This document shows positions 8,806 through 63,291 of a stretch of DNA of 64,000 nucleotides, piece by piece. The DNA is taken from the IMG/VR virus record IMGVR_UViG_3300021959_010405, positions 53,430 through 117,429 of that record, one strand, 5' to 3'. The position numbers and the translations under genes were made by a program. Every line of letters starts with the position of its first letter. The first letter of the stretch is position 1. The stretch comes from a virus. The notes under the pieces are model-generated. The model did no database searches, was not told where the DNA came from, and was given only the letters and a program-made list of their open reading frames with translations.

Positions 8806-9251
8806 AAATCACTATCGTAAAAGTCACCTTCTTCTAGATTAGATATATTTTTTGTATAAACTTTACCGTCGCTGGAATCAATCATATGTCTTTCGTAAAC
8901 TTCTTCGCGATATTCGGTTTCTGCTTGATGCAATCTTTTTTCCTTTTTAATTCTATTAATAAACGATCTAAAAGCTATAGTAGTAAAATAGGAGAAGGGA
9001 TTATATTTTGATGTTACATCGAAATTTTTATTTTTTAAAGCTGCATACATCTTCACGATTGCATCACCTACCATCTCATCTCTATACGTATAATCTTTAA
9101 ATTTAGAATTGTAGCTTAAGCCTGTCGCTATTTTATTAATGCATTCTCCGAGATAATCTTCGAATTTATCGCTTTGATAGAAACGGGCTATTGCATCCTT
9201 AAACTCTTTAGGTTCTACATAATAATTGCTCTTATCTTTAGTCTTTGCCAT
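8802..9251 (-). CDS. 55: gp55-like late-transcription sigma factor
   Basis: 149 residues (T4 gp55 is 185). The sigma-region-2-like core runs through residues 45-100: a D-E-M-V-G-D-A-I-V-K-M helix, then a Y-N-P-F-S-Y-F-T-x-x-A-F-R-S-F-I-N-R-I-K-K segment that corresponds to the part of gp55 binding core polymerase and reading the TATAAATA box. The many TATAAATA-like boxes in front of structural genes here are its expected targets. Its own promoter (9263-9290) is of the early -35/-10 type, and GAAGG in the 11-base leader could serve as Shine-Dalgarno. Confidence 0.88.
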   Translation of the reverse strand: MAKTKDKSNYYVEPKEFKDAIARFYQSDKFEDYLGECINKIATGLSYNSKFKDYTYRDEMVGDAIVKMYAALKNKNFDVTSKYNPFSYFTTIAFRSFINRIKKEKRLHQAETEYREEVYERHMIDSSDGKVYTKNISNLEEGDFYDSDL

Positions 9252-9262
9252 AGCTAACCTTC

Positions 9263-9290
9263 ATTATAGTAGATTATTATAATAATTCAA
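9263..9290 (-). promoter_or_regulatory. Early promoter of gene 55-47-46
   Basis: On the minus strand: -35 TTGAAT (9290-9285), 16-bp spacer, -10 TATAAT (9268-9263), then an 11-base leader carrying GAAGG before the ATG. Confidence 0.7.
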
Positions 9291-9294
9291 CTCA

Positions 9295-10746
9295 CTAAGG
9301 TTCTTTTATTGTAGAAATATTGAATGGTATACTCTCCTTTCGATATATTTCTAACCTTTTGTTTAAATGTGATATTCCATAATGTAGTTGATCGGCTAGA
9401 TCAATAATAATTAATTTATTTTTACTGTGATGCTTTCTCAATCCTCTACCAATCGATTGTACTAGACGTATAAAAGCCTTGCCCCCGCTTGCAAAAACAA
9501 TCATATGTATATTTTTAATATTAATTCCTGTAGAAAATATAGATGACATTGCAATACAAATAACCCCGTTATTATTCTCCATACTCTTTTTAATTTTCTC
9601 TCTATCGTCAACCTCTACCGAGCCTTGAACAAAATGAACTTCTCTATCTGAAATATTATTAAGAGTATCTAAGAGTATCTCGCCATGAGCTATATGATTA
9701 ACTAGTATTAAAATATTATTTTTAAAATTACTACTTACTTGTTTTATTATTTTGTTACGATATTCACTCTCATATAAAAAATCTAATTCTGCCTTGTATC
9801 TTGCCGTCGATGTAAATTCATCATCCTTAAAATATGTTTTAGGTTTCTTTTTATACTCAATTTTAAGAATTTTAACCTCCGCTGAAGTTAAAAATCCTTC
9901 TTCGCGAAGTTCATTACTACCTTTCTCATAATATACTGGACCTGTCTTTCCGATTATTGACCACCTATCCATCTGCTCCTCTGGTAGGGTACCAGTAAAG
10001 CCATATTTATTATTAGTATATATCTTACTAATTAATTTACCTATTTTGTTCTTATGCTTTACTTTATGAGCTTCATCAATAACTACTAAATCTACATGTT
10101 CTATCCATGAATGATCGTCAAACTGACTTTGAACAATTTGATTACTCGCTATTACAACATTTACATTAGTATCTAATTTATATTGTGAGGTCCATCTGCA
10201 GAAAGTAAATGGTACATTATACTCTTCAAAATCGCTGTATGTCTGCTGTACTAGACCGCGGTCAGGTACTAATAACAAACACCTAAAATCTTTACCTCCC
10301 TTAGTTTTATTAATAATATTATGTATAAGAGTAGCTATTGTTAAGGTTTTACCTCCACCTGTCCCTAAAACACATACCCCCTTACCTCCTTTAAGAGCAT
10401 TTTTTAAAATTTCTTCTTGATAATACCTTAATTCTAGATTATTATCTAAAAAGATGAGTTCATCGCTAAAACCGCAATCTACAATCTCTCTAACTTCGCT
10501 TGTAAAGGAGATCTTACATGTAGGTGCAGATTCTTTTATTGTTTTTATAACATCAGATAAGAGACCTGGCTCGAACTTACCAGCAGGAGTTATAGAGTAT
10601 AATCTTCTGGGGGCAAACTTGGACTGATATGCGGCCGCCTTATTAGGCACACTAAATTTCTCTCTTATTTCGTTTAACAATACGGAATTATCTGTTTTTA
10701 TTAAACAGCGATTATGATTTATTGAGTAGTCAATCTCGACCTGCAT
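9295..10746 (-). CDS. uvsW: UvsW, recombination helicase
   Basis: 483 residues (T4 UvsW is 503), a superfamily 2 helicase that unwinds branched DNA and R-loops and shuts off origin-type replication. An N-terminal DNA-binding domain (1-95) is followed by a Q motif (R-Y-Y-Q110), Walker A G128-T-G-G-G-K-T134, D224-E-A-H227, F-T-G-T-L near 254 and the arginine-finger motif S-I-G-R-G-L-R near 435. It starts one base inside uvsY and is co-transcribed with it. T4 makes UvsW late; here the arrangement suggests an early transcript from the uvsY promoter. Confidence 0.93.
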   Translation of the reverse strand: MQVEIDYSINHNRCLIKTDNSVLLNEIREKFSVPNKAAAYQSKFAPRRLYSITPAGKFEPGLLSDVIKTIKESAPTCKISFTSEVREIVDCGFSDELIFLDNNLELRYYQEEILKNALKGGKGVCVLGTGGGKTLTIATLIHNIINKTKGGKDFRCLLLVPDRGLVQQTYSDFEEYNVPFTFCRWTSQYKLDTNVNVVIASNQIVQSQFDDHSWIEHVDLVVIDEAHKVKHKNKIGKLISKIYTNNKYGFTGTLPEEQMDRWSIIGKTGPVYYEKGSNELREEGFLTSAEVKILKIEYKKKPKTYFKDDEFTSTARYKAELDFLYESEYRNKIIKQVSSNFKNNILILVNHIAHGEILLDTLNNISDREVHFVQGSVEVDDREKIKKSMENNNGVICIAMSSIFSTGINIKNIHMIVFASGGKAFIRLVQSIGRGLRKHHSKNKLIIIDLADQLHYGISHLNKRLEIYRKESIPFNISTIKEP

Positions 10747-11141
10747 TATAACATCTCAAGCTTCATTAGCTCGACAATATTTTTTATATCCCAAACCATA
10801 GAGGTAAGATTTTTTTCAGTTTTTTCTAAAAACTCAATAATTAATTCTAACTCCTTACATTTATTAGTAAGTTCCGTCATTTCGCTACTACCTTTAGCCA
10901 TTTTAAGAGATTCTGGTATACTCAAGCGCGTTACAGATTTTTCTCTAAGTTTTTCAGCGATTTCTCTCTCACGCTGTTGCTTTTCTTTATATATTGAATT
11001 GAGCTCATGCTTATGCCTTATGAGTCTAGCAGTCCAGTAGTGTCTTCTTGCAGGAAGGCGGCGTTGAACCTCGCTCACGTTCATTTCATCTATAGAAAGC
11101 TCTAATTTAAGTTCCTCTATATATTTTTCAAGAAGATCCAT
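10746..11141 (-). CDS. uvsY: UvsY-like recombination mediator
   Basis: 131 residues (T4 UvsY is 137), predicted to load UvsX on gp32-coated single-stranded DNA. The sequence is almost wholly helical and highly charged. A Y-W-T-A-R-L-I-R-H-K segment (35-44) and an R-E-R-E-I-A-E-K-L-R helix (61-70) resemble the DNA-binding part of T4 UvsY. Similarity is modest, but the position directly before uvsW is the T4 order and supports the call. Its promoter (11148-11175) overlaps the start of the divergent plus-strand gene. Confidence 0.8.
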   Translation of the reverse strand: MDLLEKYIEELKLELSIDEMNVSEVQRRLPARRHYWTARLIRHKHELNSIYKEKQQREREIAEKLREKSVTRLSIPESLKMAKGSSEMTELTNKCKELELIIEFLEKTEKNLTSMVWDIKNIVELMKLEML

Positions 11142-24991: not shown

Positions 24992-25777
24992 ATGTATTCA
25001 GATGATATAGACGAGGATATCAATAGCTATCTAGATCTTTATAATACTCCGCCATCCAATCCCCCCGGGGGGAGCATTGGTGAATATCGGGCTCTTATTG
25101 AATATAAAATTAAGCAGCTATTAAAGCAAAAACTTGATAGAATACAAGACTCTAGTGAGGATTTCCAGAAATATCAAAACTTAAAGCACGAGTTAAAAAA
25201 AGGTCGTGAGGTGGAAATGGAACACACAAAAAGTAAATTAGAGGCTGAAAAAATTGCACTCGATCATTTAAAAGAAGACCCGAATTACTATACAAAACTC
25301 GAGAAAATACACGAGGAACAAGCAGTTTTTCAGAATTCCTTTAACTTTAATAGTATATATAATCTAGCAAGTTTACTAGAGAGAGAAGAGCTCGGATTGA
25401 TTGAGCCGATAAAAATTGAAGGAATTGACGCAAAAATGTCTGCCCTTATTGATTCAGGAAATGGGGCATATAACGTACTTCATGGTATAGATATTGAGGA
25501 TAATGGTAATGAAGTAAGATTTACTACAGTAGATGGTGTAAAGGTAGTAAAAGATAAAGTAGACGAAATAACCATTCACGTAGGTGCAGGCTATGATGAG
25601 CATAGACCAGTAGTGGAGTTCACTATTGAAATCGGTAATAAGGTATATCCCGATGTAAGATTTAGTATCGGTGATAGAACAGAAAATCAGCACCCAGTAT
25701 TAGTAGGTGCTGATTTCTTGAGTCAAATCGATGCTTTGATCGATGTAAATAAAACTAAGTCTAATAAGCTCACCTAA
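24992..25777 (+). CDS. Retropepsin-like aspartyl protease (RimB/PF05618-like) with helical arm
   Basis: 261 residues. Residues 30-115 are a charged coiled coil. From 145 on the pattern follows retropepsin-like proteins of the PF05618 group: A-K-M-S-A-L-I-D154-S-G156, then L-H-G near 163, V-R-F near 174, H-R-P-V-V-E-F-T-I-E-I-G-N-K-V near 205, and P-V-L-V-G-A-D-F-L near 235. D154-S-G matches the catalytic D-(T/S)-G. One such domain would have to dimerise. Late promoter and coiled coil suggest a virion or assembly role. It converges on folE with an 8-base overlap. Substrate unknown. Confidence 0.65.
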   Translation: MYSDDIDEDINSYLDLYNTPPSNPPGGSIGEYRALIEYKIKQLLKQKLDRIQDSSEDFQKYQNLKHELKKGREVEMEHTKSKLEAEKIALDHLKEDPNYYTKLEKIHEEQAVFQNSFNFNSIYNLASLLEREELGLIEPIKIEGIDAKMSALIDSGNGAYNVLHGIDIEDNGNEVRFTTVDGVKVVKDKVDEITIHVGAGYDEHRPVVEFTIEIGNKVYPDVRFSIGDRTENQHPVLVGADFLSQIDALIDVNKTKSNKLT

Positions 25778-26408
25778 GATCTTTCTTAGCGAATTCAACA
25801 AATTTATAAAACTCTGATCGACTTGAGTCTGCATTATCTAAAAATGCACCAGTCATTCTCGCTGTTCGCATTGTTGAATCGTGTTTAATACCTCTATTAG
25901 AGCAGCATGTATGATTTGCTTCAATCACAACCGCAACTCCTTTATTGCCTTCGCATATTGTATCGATATATGAGCTAATTTGCGAAGTTAAATTTTCCTG
26001 CACTTGAGGTCTTCTAGAGAACCAATCTACAACGCGATTAAGTTTACTAAGACCGATAACCTTACCGTCTCTACTCGGAATGTACGCGACATGTGCTACT
26101 CCTGTAAATAATGCATGGTGATGGCTACACATACTATTTACTTTAATATTGTTCTGGCATACAATTCCATCATACTTATCAACATTATCGAACGCAGTAA
26201 TACTAGGTGAATCCGAATAACATCCGCTAGCGAAATCATTTACAAAAGCCTTTGCAACCCTCATAGGGGTATCAGCTGAATTAGGATCATTTCTCCAGTC
26301 AAATCCCAGCGCATCCATATATGCTTCATATGCCTTAGATGCATTCATAATAATTTCTTGTTTCTCTTCTTCTGTTCGAGGTTTATTGTGATTTGCGTAT
26401 TTTAACAT
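25770..26408 (-). CDS. folE: GTP cyclohydrolase I, FolE
   Basis: 212 residues, the normal length. It converts GTP to 7,8-dihydroneopterin triphosphate, the first step towards both tetrahydrofolate and 7-deazaguanines. The zinc site and core are present: M93-C94-S-H-H-H98 and, near 165, H-T-C-C. The signature V-I-G-L-S-K-L-N-R-V-V-D-W-F-S-R-R-P-Q-V-Q-E (about 116-137) is intact but not run in full here. QueD, QueF and a DpdA-like enzyme elsewhere in the window point to preQ0/preQ1 synthesis. Early promoter at 26415-26442. Confidence 0.95.
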   Translation of the reverse strand: MLKYANHNKPRTEEEKQEIIMNASKAYEAYMDALGFDWRNDPNSADTPMRVAKAFVNDFASGCYSDSPSITAFDNVDKYDGIVCQNNIKVNSMCSHHHALFTGVAHVAYIPSRDGKVIGLSKLNRVVDWFSRRPQVQENLTSQISSYIDTICEGNKGVAVVIEANHTCCSNRGIKHDSTMRTARMTGAFLDNADSSRSEFYKFVEFAKKDLR

Positions 26409-27424: not shown

Positions 27425-28054
27425 ATGAGTATGTATCAATCAACTAAAGTAATCGAATTAGGGTCTTGCGCATTTAGGCAATGGAAAGCAGAACACTCTC
27501 ACTGCAAGTATATTCACGGGTATCAACTTAAAGCTAAAATCTGGTTTGGTGGTAAGGAACTAGATGATAAAAACTGGATGGTAGATTTTGGAGGTCTAAA
27601 AGAGCTCAAAAAGAAACTACAAGATCAGTTCGATCATACTACTGTAGTTGCAGCAGACGATCCTAAACTTGATGTATTCAAAGAGTTAGATAAACAAGGC
27701 ATTATACAGCTAAGAGTAATGCCTGATGGTGTAGGTATAGAGAGAACTGCCGAATATGTCTGGAAGACTGCTAATGATCACGTTAAAGAGCTTACTGATG
27801 GTCGTTGTTGGTGTGTTAAAGTTGAGGTATTCGAGCATGAAGAGAACTCAGCAACTTATTCAGGAACATCGGAGAAAGCTAAAGAGGTAATTGATAGTCA
27901 GGATGCTGATATTATATCTAAATTAGGTTCTGTATCTGAGGAGGTAAAAGCAACATTTTCAGATAACCTAGAAACTAAAAATGTACAAGGGGGAAGGCCT
28001 GCACCGGTAGGAAACGCCGGTAACAAATCTTTAAAGGAAATATTTGAAACATAA
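27425..28054 (+). CDS. queD: QueD-like 6-carboxy/pyruvoyl-tetrahydropterin synthase
   Basis: 209 residues. It resembles the phage-type branch of the PTPS/QueD family, which turns dihydroneopterin triphosphate into the carboxy-tetrahydropterin on the way to 7-deazaguanine. C27-x-x-x-H31-G-Y33 corresponds to the catalytic C-x-x-x-H-G-H, V53-D-F-G-G-L-K and F-D-H near 70 are also present. Two usual zinc histidines are changed (F17 and Y33 by alignment), which I recall from marine phage relatives too. Residues 150-209 are an extra acidic tail. The early promoter matches that of folE. Confidence 0.85.
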   Translation: MSMYQSTKVIELGSCAFRQWKAEHSHCKYIHGYQLKAKIWFGGKELDDKNWMVDFGGLKELKKKLQDQFDHTTVVAADDPKLDVFKELDKQGIIQLRVMPDGVGIERTAEYVWKTANDHVKELTDGRCWCVKVEVFEHEENSATYSGTSEKAKEVIDSQDADIISKLGSVSEEVKATFSDNLETKNVQGGRPAPVGNAGNKSLKEIFET

Positions 28055-28896: not shown

Positions 28897-29604
28897 ATGA
28901 GGATAGCAGTATCTGGAACAGCAAATACAGGAAAAACGACATTTATAAAAGATTTCTTAAAGAAATGGGATAATTATTCTACCCCCGAAAAAACCTATCG
29001 CGACGTTTTGAAGGAAAAAAAATTAAATCATAGCGATAAGACCAATAAAGAGACACAGAAGTGTATTTTAGATTTTTTAGTTAATCAGCAAAAGGAATAC
29101 ACTAAAGACGACAACATTATATATGATAGATGCCCATGGGATAACTTAGTTTATTCTATGTGGGCGCTGGAGCAAGAAGATAGCGATATTGACGAGAAAT
29201 TTATTGATGAATGTATCCCTATCGTTAGAGATTCTATGAAGGATTTAGATATTATATTTTTTACCCCTTTAACAAAAGCGTCTCCTATAAAGATTGAAGA
29301 CGATGGAGTTCGTCAAGCTGATGAAAGGTATATACAGAATATAGATAGTGTATTTAAGGAATTCTATCGCCGTTATATGCATCAAAGTTTCGAGCCCTTT
29401 TTTCCACAAGGTGATGTACCAGCAATCATTGAGCTTTTCGGTGCTCCTCAGGAAAGAATATATATGGCAAGTCTTTATGTAGACGTCGACGGTGATGCTA
29501 TCGAGGGTGATATGGAATCTCTTCTTGGAGAAGAAAGTCTTAAGAGTCTACTCGGTGAGCAAAAAGAAGAATTGTTTAAATCTACAGGAATTATTACGCA
29601 GTAA
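28897..29604 (+). CDS. P-loop nucleotide/nucleoside kinase-like (NadR/AAA_28 type)
   Basis: 235 residues. G7-T-A-N-T-G-K-T-T15 is the Walker A loop; Y-D-R-C-P-W-D-N-L near 76-84 is the kinase lid/substrate region seen in NadR-type ribosylnicotinamide kinases and other AAA_28 proteins. The C-terminal 45 residues are acidic with repeated L-L-G-E units (about 208-220). A second, shorter relative lies at 61332-61901. Substrate is not certain: nicotinamide riboside or a nucleotide are the main options. Confidence 0.75.
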   Translation: MRIAVSGTANTGKTTFIKDFLKKWDNYSTPEKTYRDVLKEKKLNHSDKTNKETQKCILDFLVNQQKEYTKDDNIIYDRCPWDNLVYSMWALEQEDSDIDEKFIDECIPIVRDSMKDLDIIFFTPLTKASPIKIEDDGVRQADERYIQNIDSVFKEFYRRYMHQSFEPFFPQGDVPAIIELFGAPQERIYMASLYVDVDGDAIEGDMESLLGEESLKSLLGEQKEELFKSTGIITQ

Positions 29605-43887: not shown

Positions 43888-44478
43888 ATGATTCTCAAGG
43901 ATATAAAACACTACGATGGCTCTTTAATTCATAAAAGATTCGCATATAACTTTTTTAGAAACCATACACTACCAATAGGCAATATTGTTGCATTTAGAGG
44001 AAGCATGGATGTATCAATCGACAATATGATTGATCAAGAGGATGTAATACAGAACGATACAATCATTAGTGATGATTCTATTAACTTCTGCTGGGAGATT
44101 CCTAATATGTGCCCCATGGGCGCTGTAGCATATCAGCGATTGCTTAATACTCAGATAGCGAACCTACTATCAACAAAGTATATACAAAAGCCGATTGAAG
44201 TTGATGGTGATGATCTAATGGTTGTAGATGAGTTTTTAGGTAGCGATAATAATAAAAGAGATAAAGGTAAGTGTAGTGTATCCATTACATACTCGAGTGA
44301 TAACGTTGCAATAGGTCATACTGGTATTAATGTTAGTGCTGGTAGAAAGGCCCCGCCATTCGCATATTCTACTAATTTATCAGACGATCAATGCGAAGAG
44401 TTTATGAATGATGTTATCTCAATGTTTTATGCTATAAATGATGATATGTTTATAGCGACCTCTAAGATAAGTGTATAA
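43888..44478 (+). CDS. DUF366-like protein
   Basis: 196 residues. The order Y-D-G-S-L-I, I-V-A-F-R-G-S (about 33-39), M-I-D-Q-E-D-V (47-53), I-N-F-C-W-E near 66 and Q-R-L-L near 83 follows the DUF366 pattern known from bacteria and archaea. No catalytic mechanism is established for the family, and the call is from memory of the pattern. First gene of an early unit; its stop overlaps the next ATG by one base. Confidence 0.55.
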   Translation: MILKDIKHYDGSLIHKRFAYNFFRNHTLPIGNIVAFRGSMDVSIDNMIDQEDVIQNDTIISDDSINFCWEIPNMCPMGAVAYQRLLNTQIANLLSTKYIQKPIEVDGDDLMVVDEFLGSDNNKRDKGKCSVSITYSSDNVAIGHTGINVSAGRKAPPFAYSTNLSDDQCEEFMNDVISMFYAINDDMFIATSKISV

Positions 44479-50948: not shown

Positions 50949-52124
50949 ATGGCATGTAACATAACCCCTGTATCTGCGTTCCAGACAACTAATCTTAATA
51001 GTAAGATTAATACATACAGCCGTCTGGCTGATAGGATTGTGAGAGCACTCGGTGCTCCCTTAATTAAAATCGAGCTACATCAAGACCAGCTATTCGAAAA
51101 TATATCTATAGCTGTTGAAATGTACACTAAATTCGCGGGGTATACAGCTGAATATTTAGCTTTTGATTCAAATCTATATGAAAAAAATGTAGGTCTCCGG
51201 TTAGATCATTTGTTTACATTATCTAATCCCGATCTTACTTTAGAGCAGAAAGCAGCTCATCAAATTCAAGCTCCTGAATCCGGCTACTATATAGAGCAGA
51301 GAGATACAATGTATGTATCAACATCCTCTATCGATAGTAGTAATTTTTCTTCTTTATCGTCACTTAGCGGTGTATTTACTGATGGTATTTTTACTAATCA
51401 GATTTTAGATCAATCAACATATAATACACTACTCACTACATTCTCTAGTAATCAAAGTACAAGCGCAATACCTGTATCTTCTTACTTTATTGAAACTTTT
51501 CAAAATGTTAAGACGAGATCCGGTGAAGAGCTAACACAGGATGATACCTTAAAGCAAAATAATATGTTTGATTATGATATATTAGATTATAGAAAAGTTA
51601 TGGCTGTTAGTGAGTTCGAGGAAGGGTCTACAACTGGAATTAATACATTGTTCACCATTGAGCAGACTTTAGCGCAGCAAACATATTTTTCTTATGCGAT
51701 GGGCAATTACGGTTTTGATTTAGTCTCTTGGTATACACTTAAAGAATGGTTAGAGATGAGAGAGAAACTCTTAGCTCTAAGACGCTCATATACATTTGAC
51801 GAGAGGACTCAAATATTGCAAATGTATCCTGAACCAGACGATACTAGATTTTATGGCGTTATTTCCTGCTATGTTGAAAGACCAATAAGAGACGTTATAA
51901 AGGAGCAATGGGTATATCAATATGCTTTAGCTCTATGCAAGATAACTCTAGGTCAGGTAAGAGGTAAATATGGCAACCTAACACTATTTGGGGGTCAAAC
52001 GTTTAATTCTACCGATATACTTACAGAAGGTACTAATGAAAAAGAAAAGTTAGAAAGTAAATTATACGAAGGTGCTTCTCCAGGAATGGGTGACGCGGAC
52101 CCTCCAATGTTTCTCATAGGGTAG
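50949..52124 (+). CDS. 13: gp13-like neck protein
   Basis: 391 residues (T4 gp13 is 309). The ends match T4 gp13 well: L-G-A-P-L-I-K-I-E-L near 35-44 with D-Q-L-F after it, and at the C-terminus W-V-Y-Q-Y-A-L-A-L-C-K near 321, L-F-G-G-Q near 346 and P-P-M-F-L-I-G at the very end (T4 ends P-P-F-G-I-L-V-G). The middle carries an insertion rich in Ser and Thr (about 115-180). gp13 closes the packaged head and joins it to the tail. In T4 it is not beside gene 20; the neighbourhood here is rearranged. Confidence 0.85.
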   Translation: MACNITPVSAFQTTNLNSKINTYSRLADRIVRALGAPLIKIELHQDQLFENISIAVEMYTKFAGYTAEYLAFDSNLYEKNVGLRLDHLFTLSNPDLTLEQKAAHQIQAPESGYYIEQRDTMYVSTSSIDSSNFSSLSSLSGVFTDGIFTNQILDQSTYNTLLTTFSSNQSTSAIPVSSYFIETFQNVKTRSGEELTQDDTLKQNNMFDYDILDYRKVMAVSEFEEGSTTGINTLFTIEQTLAQQTYFSYAMGNYGFDLVSWYTLKEWLEMREKLLALRRSYTFDERTQILQMYPEPDDTRFYGVISCYVERPIRDVIKEQWVYQYALALCKITLGQVRGKYGNLTLFGGQTFNSTDILTEGTNEKEKLESKLYEGASPGMGDADPPMFLIG

Positions 52125-52169
52125 TGTAATGAGAGAAAATGAAGATCGCTGGTAATAGGCATAGCGTAG

Positions 52170-52177
52170 AGTAAATA
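52170..52177 (+). promoter_or_regulatory. Late promoter AGTAAATA
   Basis: Late-like box 11 bases before the ATG at 52189. Confidence 0.45.
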
Positions 52178-52188
52178 CAGGATACCTA

Positions 52189-52806
52189 ATGCTATCCAAA
52201 TTTATAAATAAAAAAGTGCGCCAAATTACCAACAATATAGCTGATAGAGTATATATTGAAACTTTTTTACAAGATGCTTCATTAACTAATAAATTAAAAT
52301 TGTATGCTATAAATAAATGTAGAACTAAAAATCCTGCAAAAATATCTACTGTGAAAAAGAGAAAAAAACCATCCAGACCATATAAACAGGGAGTATTTAA
52401 ACCAAAAAATCCTCTCAAATTTGATGGGTCTGCAGCAGTCTATCGATCATCTTACGAGCTAAAATTTTTTAGATGGTGTGATGAAAACGTAAATGTTCTT
52501 AAATGGGGTAGCGAGAATGTTGTAATACCATACGTTAATCCTAATACCAATAAATTATCTAAATATTTTGTAGATAGCTTTATTGTTTTAAAGGAAGGCT
52601 CAAAACATAATAAATATTTAATCGAAATAAAGCCCTTTAAACAAACTAGACCACCGAATCCGAGTAGGTATAGAAATAAGGATAATTTATTATACGAACA
52701 AACTATGTGGAATCAAAATCAAGCTAAGTGGGATGCAGCAAACAAATGGGCTAAAAAACATAGTGCCGAATTTATTATATTAACAGAAAAGGAATTAAAC
52801 ATATAA
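52189..52806 (+). CDS. 4: gp4-like head-completion nuclease-fold protein
   Basis: 205 residues (T4 gp4, also called gp50, is about 150). After a basic N-terminal arm (1-70), Y85-R-S-S-Y-E90-L-K-F starts a TnsA/PD-(D/E)XK-like core, with Y-F-V-D-S-F-I near 121 and L-I-E-I-K-P near 143, which gives the E...D...E-x-K set. Q-T-R-P-P-N-P and N-Q-A-K-W-D-A-A-N-K-W near 178 are T4 gp4 signatures. It finishes filled heads, perhaps by trimming DNA or binding its end. Confidence 0.85.
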   Translation: MLSKFINKKVRQITNNIADRVYIETFLQDASLTNKLKLYAINKCRTKNPAKISTVKKRKKPSRPYKQGVFKPKNPLKFDGSAAVYRSSYELKFFRWCDENVNVLKWGSENVVIPYVNPNTNKLSKYFVDSFIVLKEGSKHNKYLIEIKPFKQTRPPNPSRYRNKDNLLYEQTMWNQNQAKWDAANKWAKKHSAEFIILTEKELNI

Positions 52807-56196: not shown

Positions 56197-56225
56197 CCTC
56201 GGAGAGAAATCTCCGAGGTTTCTTT
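56197..56225. terminator. Terminator after the capsid gene
   Basis: Perfect 9-bp stem CCTCGGAGA/TCTCCGAGG (56197-56205, 56210-56218) with a GAAA tetraloop, followed by T-rich TTTCTTT on the plus strand. It closes the head block against the convergent repeat genes. Confidence 0.85.
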
Positions 56226-56895
56226 ATGTAAATATTCTGCCTCTTACTCCCGGTAACATTCCTTTAAGTTCTTCCGCAGTATATTTTTTACTTATCGGGG
56301 TATTAGTTAGATCTAAATCACCACCTACTTGTAGATTATCTGGCAGTGATGTTATTTGCGTATTACGTAAATCTAAACTACTGCCTACTTCTAGATTATC
56401 TGGTAGTGAGGCTATTGGTGCGCTAGATAAATATAAACCACCACCTACTTTAAGATTATCTGGGAGTGATGTTATTTGCGTATTACGTAAATCTAAAAAA
56501 CCGCTTACTTTAAGATTATTTGATAGTGATGTTATTGGTGTGTTAGATAGATCTAAATAACCGTTTACTTCTAGATTATCTGGTAATGATGTTATTTGTG
56601 TATTAGGTAAATCTAAACTACCACCTACTTGTAGATTATCTGGTAGTGAGGCTATTGGTGTGCTAGATAAATATAAACCGCGACCCACTTTAAGATTATT
56701 TGGTAGTGATGTTATTGGTGTATTAGTTAGAATTAAATCACCTCGCGACCCATTATCGATATAATCTTGTATCTTTTTATACGCCAATCTCTCTAAATGA
56801 GCTTGCTTATCCTCTCTAGAGTACTTTGGTTTATGATTAGTCAAATCGATAGATTCTCTAAGGATTTGTTTGTATGCTTCAAATATAGGGTCCAT
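56224..56895 (-). CDS. Leucine-rich-repeat protein, copy 3 (7 units)
   Basis: 223 residues. Residues 1-14 (M-D-P-I-F-E-A-Y-K-Q-I-L-R-E) look like a capsid-targeting peptide with a gp21 site at L-R-E. Residues 15-55 are a conserved helical cap. Seven 20-residue units follow, each of the form I-T-S-L-P-D-N-L-x-V-G-G-x-L-x-L. This short LRR type is close to that of IpaH/YopM-like bacterial effectors. A C-terminal cap starts S-K-K-Y-T-A-E-E-L-K. Two sister genes lie behind. No enzyme domain is attached. Confidence 0.8.
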   Translation of the reverse strand: MDPIFEAYKQILRESIDLTNHKPKYSREDKQAHLERLAYKKIQDYIDNGSRGDLILTNTPITSLPNNLKVGRGLYLSSTPIASLPDNLQVGGSLDLPNTQITSLPDNLEVNGYLDLSNTPITSLSNNLKVSGFLDLRNTQITSLPDNLKVGGGLYLSSAPIASLPDNLEVGSSLDLRNTQITSLPDNLQVGGDLDLTNTPISKKYTAEELKGMLPGVRGRIFT

Positions 56896-56909
56896 TTAAT
56901 TTTTAGGAT

Positions 56910-56917
56910 TATTTATG
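56910..56917 (-). promoter_or_regulatory. Late promoter CATAAATA between repeat genes
   Basis: Late box on the minus strand, overlapping the stop codon of the upstream repeat gene and 14 bases before the ATG at 56895. The same arrangement recurs upstream of 57527 (25 bases before that ATG). Confidence 0.45.
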
Positions 56918-57527
56918 TATATATTTTGCCTTCTACTCCTGGGAGCATTCTTTTAAGTTCTTCCGCAGTATATTTTTTACTTATTGGGGTATTACGTAAA
57001 TATAAATGACCACCTACTTCTAGATTATCTGGTAGGGATGTTATTTGGGTATTACGTAAATATAAACCACCACCTACTTCTAGATTATCTGGTAGGGATG
57101 TTATTTTAGTACCACCTAAATTTAAATCACCACCTACTTCTAGATTATCTGGCAGTGATGCTATTTGTGTATTATCTAAATATAAATCACCACCTACTTC
57201 TAGATTATCTGGCAGTGATGTTATTTGCGTATTACCTAAATATAAACCACCACCTACTTTAAGATTATCTGGTAGGGATGTTATTTGTGTATTACGTAAA
57301 TTTAAACCACCACCTACTTCTAGATTATCTGGTAGGGATGTTATTTGCGTATAAGATAAATCTAAATTGCCTTGAGATCCACTATCGATATAATCTTGTA
57401 CCTTTTTATACGCCAATCTCGCTAAATGAGCTTGTTTATCCTCTTTAGTGTATTTTGGTTTATGATTAGTCAAATCGATAGTCTGTTCACTTAGGATTTG
57501 TTTGTATGCTTCGAATATAGGGTCCAT
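56913..57527 (-). CDS. Leucine-rich-repeat protein, copy 2 (6 units)
   Basis: 204 residues. Same plan as its neighbours: targeting-like N-terminus ending I-L-S-E14, helical cap with H-K-P-K-Y-T-K-E-D near 21-29, six 20-residue LRR units and the S-K-K-Y-T-A-E-E-L-K end cap. It is one unit shorter than copy 3. Units within this gene are very alike at DNA level (60-base period), so gain or loss of units by recombination is expected. Confidence 0.8.
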   Translation of the reverse strand: MDPIFEAYKQILSEQTIDLTNHKPKYTKEDKQAHLARLAYKKVQDYIDSGSQGNLDLSYTQITSLPDNLEVGGGLNLRNTQITSLPDNLKVGGGLYLGNTQITSLPDNLEVGGDLYLDNTQIASLPDNLEVGGDLNLGGTKITSLPDNLEVGGGLYLRNTQITSLPDNLEVGGHLYLRNTPISKKYTAEELKRMLPGVEGKIYT

Positions 57528-57555
57528 ATGTTTTATTAAATCATATATTGATTAT

Positions 57556-58167
57556 TTATGTATATATTTTGCCTTCTACCCCTGGGAGCATTCTTTTAAG
57601 TTTTTTCGCAGTATATTTTTTACTTATTGGTGTTTTCTCTAAATTTAAATATTCACCTACTTTTAAATTATCTGGTAGGGATGTTATTTGCGTATTATGT
57701 AAATCTAAAATACCGTCTACTTTAAGATTATCTGGCAGTGATGTTATTTGCGTATTACCTAAATATAAACCACCACCTACTTCTAGATTATCTGGTAGGG
57801 ATGTTATTTGCGTATAAGATAAATATAAATCACCACCTACTTCTAGATTATCTGGTAGGGATGTTATTTTAGTACCACCTAAATTTAAATATCCACCTAC
57901 TTTAAGATTATCTGGTAGGGATGTTATTTGCGTATTATGTAAATCTAAAATACCGTCTACTTTAAGATTATCTGGTAGGGATGTTATTTGTGTATTAGCT
58001 AGTTCTAAATTGCCTTGAGATCCACTATCGATATAATCTTGTACCTTTTTATACGCTAATTTATTTAAATGAGCTTGCTTATCCTCTTTAGTGTATTTTG
58101 GTTTATGGTTAGTTAAATCGATAGATTCTCTAAGAATTTGTTTGTATACTTCAAATATAGGGTCCAT
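57556..58167 (-). CDS. Leucine-rich-repeat protein, copy 1 (6 units)
   Basis: 203 residues, first of the three in transcription order. N-terminus ends I-L-R-E14. Six LRR units; the first and fifth carry the same K-V-D-G-I-L-D-L-H variant, which suggests unit duplication. The end cap reads T-A-K-K-L-K instead of T-A-E-E-L-K. Its start is 17 bases after the stop of the WCT-motif gene, so both are probably transcribed from the late box at 59033-59040. Confidence 0.8.
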   Translation of the reverse strand: MDPIFEVYKQILRESIDLTNHKPKYTKEDKQAHLNKLAYKKVQDYIDSGSQGNLELANTQITSLPDNLKVDGILDLHNTQITSLPDNLKVGGYLNLGGTKITSLPDNLEVGGDLYLSYTQITSLPDNLEVGGGLYLGNTQITSLPDNLKVDGILDLHNTQITSLPDNLKVGEYLNLEKTPISKKYTAKKLKRMLPGVEGKIYT

Positions 58168-60380: not shown

Positions 60381-61328
60381 TTACTGTTTCGGGGTCTTAG
60401 CATGCGGAACCGTAGCAGATGATAAGGTAGGATGAAGCAACGTTACATCTGATGCTCTCTCCGGGTTAATGTCAATACCCCCACGTCGAGCATATAAACA
60501 TCTTACACACAACTCTTCCGGTTCTAGAACATCCCAAATTCTCTTATAAATTGTTTCGCAAATCTCTTCATGAAAATGACACTCATCTCGGAAAGATACA
60601 ATGTATTTTAGCATACTGATTGGATCAATAGTCTTGCTACTATGTTTCATATAAATATAAACATCGCCCCAATCTGGTTGAGAGGTAACCCTGCAATTAG
60701 ATTTAAGTAGAGCACTATGATATCTGATCTCTGAAGCTTCGCTATCGATAACTTCAAGTAGATCTGGAGTTTCATTATATACATCAAATTCAATCTCTGA
60801 TGTATTATAATCATCTTCTAACGTCGAGTATGAAAGTTTCTGTACTTCTTCATAAGTAGAATTAATTTCATGCTCCCACTCATAGATACCAGGAAACGTA
60901 CATTTAAGCACCTCATAGTTAAACGCAACTTTGATATTAACTTCAGCTTCGAGTAATTCAGAAAGATCTTTTTTAGCTTTTGATTCAATCGAATTAACGA
61001 CCTCAATAGGGTCTTTTCCAAGCTTAGTCATATTAAACGAATTAAAATATAACTTAATAGACTTAGACTCTACAATATATTTACTATTACAAGGATATAC
61101 AATTTTTGCAATACCCGTTACCGGGAGACCATTATCTGTTAAAGCAGATACTTCATATGCATTCCATGTATCGTTACCTACGAAAGGTAAGTTATCATCG
61201 TCTAAATCTAGATGCTCTCTATTTGATTTCCGAGGTTCTCTAACAAGGAGACTTGGATCATACAGAGACTTGTACTGAGAGGACTGACCTAGATGTTTAC
61301 TGATTCGCGAATTATCGAGTTTACTCAT
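60381..61328 (-). CDS. queF: QueF, preQ0 reductase (bimodular)
   Basis: 315 residues, close to E. coli-type QueF (282). It reduces the nitrile 7-cyano-7-deazaguanine (preQ0) to preQ1 with NADPH. L13-G-Q-S-S-Q-Y and Y23-D-P-S-L-L start the protein; V86-E-S-K-S-I-K-L-Y is the NADPH/family signature; L-L-K-S-N-C212-R-V-T-S-Q-P-D219-W holds the catalytic Cys and Asp. F-H-E-E near 252 supports substrate binding. It is last in a minus-strand operon behind DpdA, a formyltransferase and a kinase, and separated from the kinase gene by 3 bases. Confidence 0.93.
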   Translation of the reverse strand: MSKLDNSRISKHLGQSSQYKSLYDPSLLVREPRKSNREHLDLDDDNLPFVGNDTWNAYEVSALTDNGLPVTGIAKIVYPCNSKYIVESKSIKLYFNSFNMTKLGKDPIEVVNSIESKAKKDLSELLEAEVNIKVAFNYEVLKCTFPGIYEWEHEINSTYEEVQKLSYSTLEDDYNTSEIEFDVYNETPDLLEVIDSEASEIRYHSALLKSNCRVTSQPDWGDVYIYMKHSSKTIDPISMLKYIVSFRDECHFHEEICETIYKRIWDVLEPEELCVRCLYARRGGIDINPERASDVTLLHPTLSSATVPHAKTPKQ

Positions 61329-61331
61329 ATA

Positions 61332-61901
61332 TTAATAATTATAGGCTATATTTTTTTTTATTCCAGTATTAATTATACTATCTTTTAATATTTCCATTCT
61401 TTCTTCTACAGACCCTTTCAGCTCAACAATATTTTCACATAAGGGTTTATATTTATCAAATAACTTAATAATATCGTCTCGGAATTCCTTGTTAATACTA
61501 CGTTCACCATCATCGACAAGAGGTATATCTGGGCATGTATAATAAATTGTATCAATCTTAGGCATTAACTCTCCGAACATTTTTCTCGCATAATCTAGCA
61601 CCCACTCATCCACTTTTTTGTTATTGAATAGATACTCTGTATACACAACACCGTCAAGAATACATCTATCCATTATAACATGCCCCTCTCTACAGGTTAA
61701 ATAATTTTCTAAGTGTTGGTTAATAATGCATAGCTGCGTTATATTATTGCCTTCCTCATTAATACTAACACCAAATTTTCTTTTAACTAATCTAGTAACT
61801 TCCGGTATAAACTCACACTTGGAAAAAAGATGATTACGTTTGCAATTCTCGAGAAGGGTAGTTTTTCCAGTACTTTGCGCTCCACTAAATGAAATAATCA
61901 T
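61332..61901 (-). CDS. P-loop kinase, NadR/AAA_28-like
   Basis: 189 residues. G7-A-Q-S-T-G-K-T-T is Walker A; M-D-R-C-I near 79 is the Asp-Arg motif of AAA_28 kinases. It is related in plan to the protein at 28897-29604 but lacks its acidic tail. Being in the DpdA-QueF operon, it may phosphorylate a nucleoside or pterin-like substrate of that pathway; an NAD-linked role is the other option. It lies 2 bases from the formyltransferase gene. Confidence 0.75.
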   Translation of the reverse strand: MIISFSGAQSTGKTTLLENCKRNHLFSKCEFIPEVTRLVKRKFGVSINEEGNNITQLCIINQHLENYLTCREGHVIMDRCILDGVVYTEYLFNNKKVDEWVLDYARKMFGELMPKIDTIYYTCPDIPLVDDGERSINKEFRDDIIKLFDKYKPLCENIVELKGSVEERMEILKDSIINTGIKKNIAYNY

Positions 61902-61903
61902 AT

Positions 61904-62482
61904 TTATATAATAATGTTGTTCCTAATAAAATCTACCCAAAGACCGAGAGAGTTTCTTCTAATGCTATCATTTAAACTATCAAAATCTTTATATAGATCT
62001 TTGCCATAGCCATCAGCAAGTGGGAAACGTTTCTCACTAATAATTTCACCCTCATCAATTTCTGGTATTACCTTATGGATTACGCATCCAGCATAATCAT
62101 ACATATGATAATTTTCCCAGACTCTCTCGACAGGATCTTTGCCTTTAAGGTCTTTATATAAACTTATAATACCAGGATGCCCATTATATATAGTATATTG
62201 TTCACAAATATCAGCTGGAATTATTTTTAACCAACCGTTAAGGGTTATTAGAGTATCATCATGCCTTTCAATAATACGTTTATATGTACTACTCGTTATA
62301 TTATCATCAACTGCAATCAACGACTTAGTCTCGCTCTGTCTGTAAAACTCAAGCAAATTTTTATTAATGTTATTAAATTTGTTGTTAGTAACAACAATGT
62401 CAGGAAAATAATCAATTTTACGAGAAATATCTAGAATTTCTGACCCTGTTTGGCTAAAGAATGCTACCCACTTCTTTATCAT
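61904..62482 (-). CDS. Formyltransferase-like protein (PurN/Fmt fold)
   Basis: 192 residues. The catalytic triad of folate-dependent formyltransferases can be placed: N100-G-H102-P-G and, 41 residues on, D143 in P-E-I-D-E-G-E-I, with L-N-G-W-L-K-I-I-P near 81 before it. GAR transformylase (PurN) has about the same length. Enzymes of this fold also formylate amino sugars, which would fit the glycan genes, but the operon partners here are DpdA and QueF. It shares one base with the DpdA stop. Confidence 0.8.
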   Translation of the reverse strand: MIKKWVAFFSQTGSEILDISRKIDYFPDIVVTNNKFNNINKNLLEFYRQSETKSLIAVDDNITSSTYKRIIERHDDTLITLNGWLKIIPADICEQYTIYNGHPGIISLYKDLKGKDPVERVWENYHMYDYAGCVIHKVIPEIDEGEIISEKRFPLADGYGKDLYKDFDSLNDSIRRNSLGLWVDFIRNNIII

Positions 62483-63291
62483 TATTTGTGTCCGTTTAAA
62501 ATATTATCGAATTGTTCTATATTATAGTAAATATGTTCCTTTTGATCTTCATCAAAATCTTCCTTATCTATAATATTTTCATTATCCGCTAAATGTATTT
62601 CATTTAGTAGCCCATTATCTCCGTAATATTTCATTTGTTTAATTCCAGCAATTACTGGATTGCTAGTATCAACCGATCTTATATTATAAATATTATTTGC
62701 ACCATAATGTTTAAATTCTTTAGCAAGAGAGCATCCTAGAAGATGGTGTGGTTTTTTCCAGTTCCAATAACCGTCAAGAATAAGCTGGTCTATTAGTCTC
62801 ACTCTACCTTCAGATCGTCTCTCGTCAGGAGAGTCTCCAAGCCCGGTAACTTCAAAATATTTCATATCAAAAGAGATAGCAATATAATCAGCATATTCAG
62901 CCATAAATTTATAGCAATCAACAATTTCCTGATAGGTAAATCCTTGAACTGTTCCCATTCTCATTCCAGGTGCATTTTTATATTCATTTACCCAGCTAAT
63001 AAACCCGTTAATAGTTTCAGCGCTATCTTCGAGAACATCCGGAACTATATAATATGTTGGCATTAATTTATCAACCCACTTAATATATTCCTTTGGGTCG
63101 AATGCAGTTTTTAGTTCAAAAATACTATTATCTAAAATTACCTCTCTATTATTAGCAAGAGTTCTCGTAAAAAAATCGTAATATTTTTTATAGTTCTCAA
63201 AGTGATGAACAAGAGCATAATCATAATCTGTCCTTTTTTGAACGTCGTCCATTAAAGCAATCGGAGCTTCATGCGCTTTTAATATCTTCAT
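62482..63291 (-). CDS. dpdA: DpdA-like 7-deazaguanine DNA transglycosylase
   Basis: 269 residues, in the size range of short phage DpdA proteins (tRNA-guanine transglycosylase superfamily). The TIM-barrel landmarks appear in order: L-D54-N-S (base-recognition Asp region), I-V-P-D85, G-T-V-Q116-G, H183-L-L-G, and R-S-V-D208-T-S, where D208 would be the nucleophile. No zinc C-x-C-x-x-C site of tRNA enzymes is seen. It would swap guanine in DNA for preQ1 or a related base made by FolE, QueD and QueF. First gene of its operon, with an early promoter 7 bases upstream. Confidence 0.75.
   Translation of the reverse strand: MKILKAHEAPIALMDDVQKRTDYDYALVHHFENYKKYYDFFTRTLANNREVILDNSIFELKTAFDPKEYIKWVDKLMPTYYIVPDVLEDSAETINGFISWVNEYKNAPGMRMGTVQGFTYQEIVDCYKFMAEYADYIAISFDMKYFEVTGLGDSPDERRSEGRVRLIDQLILDGYWNWKKPHHLLGCSLAKEFKHYGANNIYNIRSVDTSNPVIAGIKQMKYYGDNGLLNEIHLADNENIIDKEDFDEDQKEHIYYNIEQFDNILNGHK

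Follow-up and report, generated by a model that had tools for sequence, protein, structure and literature searches.

A marine phage cassette joins QueF and a probable preQ1 formyltransferase to a putative DpdA3 transglycosylase with a replaceable kinase partner

Why are the genes for a formyltransferase and a P-loop kinase packed between a dpdA-type gene and queF in a marine phage, and do the two enzymes serve the same step of DNA base modification? The locus lies at the right end of the window, by which we mean the whole stretch of 64,000 nucleotides analysed here (bases 53430–117429 of a record of 117,429 bases). As the best explanation of the locus as a whole, to which we assign a probability of roughly 0.5, we propose a pathway that swaps DNA guanine for 7-(formylamino)methyl-7-deazaguanine, with the kinase serving an exchange at the level of the DNA precursors.

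The open reading frames define a cassette of four genes, all on the minus strand. These encode a putative DpdA3-type DNA/deoxynucleotide guanine transglycosylase (62482..63291, 269 aa), a PurN-fold, DpdN-like formyltransferase with preQ1 or dPreQ1 as its probable substrate (61904..62482, 192 aa), an AAA_28 P-loop kinase of the nucleoside/nucleotide kinase fold (61332..61901, 189 aa) and QueF, the nitrile reductase that converts preQ0 to preQ1 (60381..61328). The dpdA and formyltransferase genes overlap by 1 base, while gaps of 2 and 3 bases separate the formyltransferase from the kinase and the kinase from queF, respectively. The positions and tight packing agree exactly with those given in the initial annotation, whose labels for the formyltransferase, the kinase and QueF are also borne out by Pfam; its 'dpdA' was the weakest label. 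The same annotation proposed a search for this gene group in other phages, and the order DpdA3–formyltransferase–kinase–QueF was indeed found again in 174 loci (a count that is not de-duplicated), so the arrangement is not a product of chance. It also occurs in the Flavobacterium phage vB_FspM_immuto_2-6A (NC_055915), where dpdA, a small ORF, the formyltransferase, the kinase and queF follow one another, with folE, queD and queE nearby, and where the proteins are 38–45% identical to those of the window. Two further enzymes are encoded near DpdA3 in the immuto locus (L001), a phosphoribosyltransferase (8893–9288) and a MazG/PRA-PH-like nucleotide pyrophosphohydrolase (10332–10856); both are kept in the immuto-type clade, and neither was seen beside the window's cassette. 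The polymerase of immuto belongs to family A, whereas that of the window's phage is T4-like.

The DpdA3 protein of the window shares 43% identity with the immuto protein annotated as 'DNA guanine transglycosylase' and 41% with gp056 of Campylobacter phage CP220, and it displays the conserved motifs LDN, PD, VQG, HLLG and DTSNP. The window's protein had no match to the Pfam TGT family, and a DpdA3 profile search of the PDB revealed no TGT structure. Single members of the DpdA3 family gave weak matches (0.08 to Pfam TGT and 0.003 to PADLOC DpdA), and pairwise hhalign comparison with E. coli Tgt was likewise weak (E 0.008, probability 5%), with the VQG and LLGC motifs in register. Taken as sequence comparisons, these findings moderately support the assignment of DpdA3 as a transglycosylase, with the immuto annotation bearing most of the weight.

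The supply of the modified base is represented by several genes of the record. QueF matched both of its Pfam domains, QueF_N (PF14819, 9e-33, 113.4 bits against 25.6) and QueF (PF14489, 9e-21, 74.3 against 27.3), and contains the SNCRVTSQPDWGDV motif with a catalytic-type Cys. Against TIGR03138 it scored 248.9 bits (6.6e-74), under the equivalog cut-off of 293.45; the phage protein is divergent, yet co-linear over residues 9–296. FolE, the GTP cyclohydrolase I of the first step of preQ0 synthesis, is encoded at 25770..26408 on the minus strand (PF01227, 8e-48), and QueD, the 6-carboxy-tetrahydropterin synthase, at 27425..28054 on the plus strand (PF01242, 2e-19; PHROG 2389, QueD-like, 1e-39). 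QueC lies just left of the window, at bases 51764–52399 of the record. Neither QueE nor any other radical-SAM protein was found in the whole record, despite its FolE, QueD, QueC and QueF genes; QueE may be supplied by the host, or the record may be incomplete. A DUF366 protein (PF04017, E 1e-23; 43888–44478, plus strand) is also encoded in the window of this phage, which has 7-deazaguanine genes, and a literature search on DUF366 returned nothing relevant.

The formyltransferase is a single domain of 192 residues that matched Formyl_trans_N (PF00551, 1.7e-8). Its predicted model (pLDDT 95.6) adopts a PurN/ArnA-like fold, and its best matches in the PDB were GAR transformylases (4s1n, E 1.3e-11). 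The residues N100, H102 and D143, which had been described as in place, are invariant in an alignment of 27 relatives, and we take them to be the catalytic Asn-His-Asp of the PurN family. As judged from this alignment and from the predicted model, fold and triad are of the 10-formyl-tetrahydrofolate type. PurN proper, the GAR formyltransferase, was rejected as its identity, with 38.7 bits lying far under the cut-off of 150.1 of the PurN NCBIfam equivalog. As a speculation from sequence, the invariant E15, which lies in what is the GAR-phosphate loop of PurN, may serve to grip the guanine edge of a 7-deazaguanine.

Two scans of IMG/VR identified 361 and 510 stretches encoding relatives of the formyltransferase; among annotated phages, full-length relatives were found only in the Flavobacterium immuto phages. 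Of the 98 loci that had enough sequence downstream and were counted as distinct (below 90% identity), 97 have QueF adjacent to the formyltransferase and 87 have DpdA3 adjacent to it, while cassettes of the CP220 type, which are without QueF, are also without the formyltransferase. Because of this nearly constant presence of QueF, the reading that fits best by a wide margin is formylation of preQ1 or dPreQ1, and we consider it highly probable that the predicted activity of the PurN-fold enzyme is formyl transfer onto the preQ1 (or dPreQ1) amine. The proposal of such a transfer in the initial annotation is consequently strengthened by genomic context, fold and triad; its novelty did not hold. 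Cui and colleagues, writing in NAR in 2023, reportedly described fdPreQ1, that is, 7-(formylamino)methyl-7-deazaguanine, and are said to have named a predicted formyltransferase DpdN. Formylation of the preQ1 amine is thus very likely and, by that account, essentially known already; that work is not known to give the kinase a role. DpdN resembles the present enzyme in its predicted reaction and in its genomic link to QueF and DpdA, a likeness drawn from its reported description. In a number of openly available papers that cite the work of Cui and colleagues or treat neighbouring subjects, no details on the formyl base or on DpdN were found. For the window's own phage, we infer that the guanines of its DNA are most likely replaced by this formylated look-alike base.

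The kinase matched AAA_28 (PF13521, 3.1e-13; 50.7 bits against a cut-off of 27) and PHROG 2107, 'thymidylate kinase' (2e-26). Across 42 aligned rows, G7, GK12-13, T15, D78-R79, D131-G132 and R134 are invariant, comprising the P-loop, DR and DDGxR motifs. Structural comparison by Foldseek ranked dTMP kinase first, whereas VIA-align placed NadR ribosylnicotinamide kinase at the top (Z 18.2, rmsd 2.9, 173 residues), with dCK/dGK and dTMP kinase at Z of about 16–17. By its modelled fold, which matches both dTMP kinase and NadR/dCK, the protein is a P-loop nucleoside/nucleotide kinase; the name 'dTMP kinase' was rejected, as PHROG and fold likeness were its only backing. The likeness to AAA_28 and NadR could also point to a nucleoside kinase that does something else, a consideration that weighs against the pathway proposed below. 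A further AAA_28-type kinase, 25% identical to that of the cassette, is encoded at 28897–29604 on the plus strand, adjoining phoH and queD; CP220 and marine relatives likewise have a second copy, so two kinases may be needed.

The distribution of the kinase revealed which of its neighbours it accompanies. Of 124 distinct DpdA3 loci with enough flanking sequence, 117 have the kinase, 112 QueF and 84 the formyltransferase; conversely, DpdA3 was close by in 118 of 128 distinct kinase loci. In CP220 and several contigs, the cassette consists of DpdA3 and the kinase only, with neither QueF nor the formyltransferase; in CP220 itself, DpdA3 (gp056) is followed by a kinase of the same family (gp057, 36% identity). 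Eight of the nine records that appeared to have the kinase without DpdA3 have DpdA3 about 6–7 kb off, and the DpdA3-alone records that were checked contain the kinase elsewhere. Two kinase loci without DpdA3 (L188 and L234) look like other contexts, one of them adjoining a DUF3310-like protein. A tree of 95 DpdA3 proteins shows several gains or losses of the formyltransferase and of QueF, but just one clade that lacks the kinase. A P-loop ORF lies within 2 kb of DpdA3 in 308 of 318 loci; within 1.5 kb of other DpdA types (the 9g type and Vibrio 6E35.1a) none was found in seven loci, a small control set of which several members come from one lineage. Taken together, we hold with considerable confidence that the kinase is a partner of DpdA3. 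Since it follows DpdA3 even where the formyltransferase and QueF are lacking, the kinase probably takes no part in the formylation step, and a supporting role in formylation was rejected on these co-occurrences. The earlier treatment of formyltransferase and kinase as one pair is not borne out by these data: the formyltransferase tracks QueF and the kinase tracks DpdA3.

In all 10 loci of the kinase-less DpdA3 clade, a DUF3310 protein sits in the kinase slot. DUF3310 is also part of T7 gp1.7, which phosphorylates dGMP and dTMP (PMC12846349, PMC7693777). Two points weaken this evidence: at about 92 aa, the protein of the displaced clade is short and has no counterpart of the N-terminal region of T7 gp1.7, and the clade counts as one event. 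More divergent DpdA3-like proteins, with 21–24% identity to that of the window, adjoin yet other kinases. In Aeromonas phage Ahp1, the DpdA3-like gene lies beside DNMK, a deoxynucleotide monophosphate kinase of the T4 gp1 type (1.7e-17), and in Chryseobacterium phage MA9V-3 it is adjoined by an AAA_18 P-loop protein. In Bacillus phage BSTP10, an annotated thymidylate kinase lies beside the DpdA3-like gene, between FolE and the DNA polymerase. In Bacillus and Weizmannia phages, where the neighbours are P-loop proteins, the order is folE, small ORFs, kinase, DpdA3 and DNA polymerase, with the last three genes overlapping. This near-obligate yet replaceable kinase beside DpdA3 is the surprising part of the analysis.

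In the proposed pathway, FolE, QueD, QueE (from the host or from unsequenced DNA) and QueC would yield preQ0, which QueF would reduce to preQ1, and the PurN-fold enzyme would formylate the aminomethyl nitrogen with 10-formyl-tetrahydrofolate as the donor. DpdA3 would trade guanine for the modified base while the deoxynucleotide (or deoxynucleoside) is still free; the kinase, serving the base exchange and not formylation, would lift the exchanged product toward the dNTP for the phage polymerase, every G being replaced at synthesis. In the phage Z-genome and T4 hmC pathways, the unusual nucleotide is made by a dedicated phage enzyme and raised to the dNTP by kinases, with full replacement. The proposed route is similar in that a kinase would act on the odd nucleotide before incorporation; it differs in base and chemistry, in the transglycosylase swap and in that no dGTP-removing enzyme was found in the record. 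That DpdA3 and its near-obligate kinase make a modified dNTP before replication, resulting in full replacement by 7-deazaguanine bases, is a suggestion we make tentatively, at a little under even odds. Such an exchange would explain why 100% of dG is replaced by dADG in CP220, which has DpdA3 and the kinase (PMC8306585); without such a kinase, replacement is 27% in 9g (PMC6884629) and 15% in the near-identical 6E351A (PMC12028318). That DpdA3 is paired with nucleotide kinases that can stand in for one another also fits the idea, raised when no DpdA was recognised in these phages, that Campylobacter phages might make modified dGTP (Hutinet 2019), by way of exchange, phosphorylation and incorporation. 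Action of DpdA3 on nucleotides, if real, would be an activity new to the tRNA-guanine-transglycosylase fold, would provide an enzymatic route to 7-deaza-dGTP analogues for labelling and for restriction-resistant DNA, and would overturn the view of all phage 7-deazaguanine insertion as post-replicative; total guanine replacement becomes testable with two proteins and dGMP.

Counting against the precursor route, the work of Cui and colleagues reportedly holds insertion to be post-replicative in all cases, DpdA3 included. DpdA3 might, accordingly, act on finished DNA like other DpdA enzymes, with the kinase recycling the freed guanine from GMP through GDP to GTP and on to FolE once a phosphoribosyltransferase has made GMP. 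This alternative has the published view of DpdA enzymes behind it, full replacement would set much guanine free, and in immuto and related phages a phosphoribosyltransferase gene is indeed flanked by those for QueE and FolE. We nonetheless regard it as unlikely, as host guanylate kinase already does this job, only one clade has the phosphoribosyltransferase whereas the kinase is nearly universal, and among the kinases that take its place are deoxynucleotide types (DUF3310/T7 gp1.7 and DNMK) and not GMP kinases. A general dNMP kinase of the phage, boosting dNTP supply and co-inherited with the cassette by accident, is less likely still: the PHROG name and the second AAA_28 kinases in the window and its relatives would suit such an enzyme, but adjacency to DpdA3 is kept in distant phages, in split cassettes and despite unrelated replacement kinases, and the kinase is missing at other DpdA types. 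Least of all do we favour a formyltransferase that works outside base modification and has a different amine as its substrate (GAR, tRNA or an amino sugar from the sugar-nucleotide genes present in the window), which its PurN/ArnA-like fold would permit but which is at odds with its adjacency to QueF and DpdA3, with its low PurN score and with its absence from the QueF-less cassettes of the CP220 type.

For replacement at the precursor level, as we propose, a dGTP-removing hydrolase would be expected, though none (PRA-PH, MazG, HD or DUF1599) was found in the phage's own record. Among 29 records, PRA-PH was detected in 10, all of the immuto-type clade, HD above the cut-off in 2 and MazG in 0. 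A dGTP-cleansing hydrolase was therefore ruled out as a universal partner of DpdA3; just some of the clades have such a gene close to the cassette.

Several further genes were observed in or near related cassettes. DUF1599, a domain associated with nucleotide modification, is encoded between the formyltransferase and the kinase in three loci (L017, 1167–2403; L045, 6530–7766; L358, 5516–5848), and in the first two of these the slot also contains an ornithine cyclodeaminase-like gene, possibly for a further tailoring step. In CP220 (L002, 6868–7899), a fusion of an HD phosphohydrolase with a P-loop domain lies directly upstream of DpdA3 and is a candidate dGTP/dGMP-processing enzyme; the window's cassette differs from that of CP220 in this gene as well as in QueF and the formyltransferase. 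Elsewhere in the window, downstream of the major capsid gene, three paralogous repeat proteins are encoded in a row (56224–58167, minus strand), with units like DNLEVGGDLYLDNTQITSLP.
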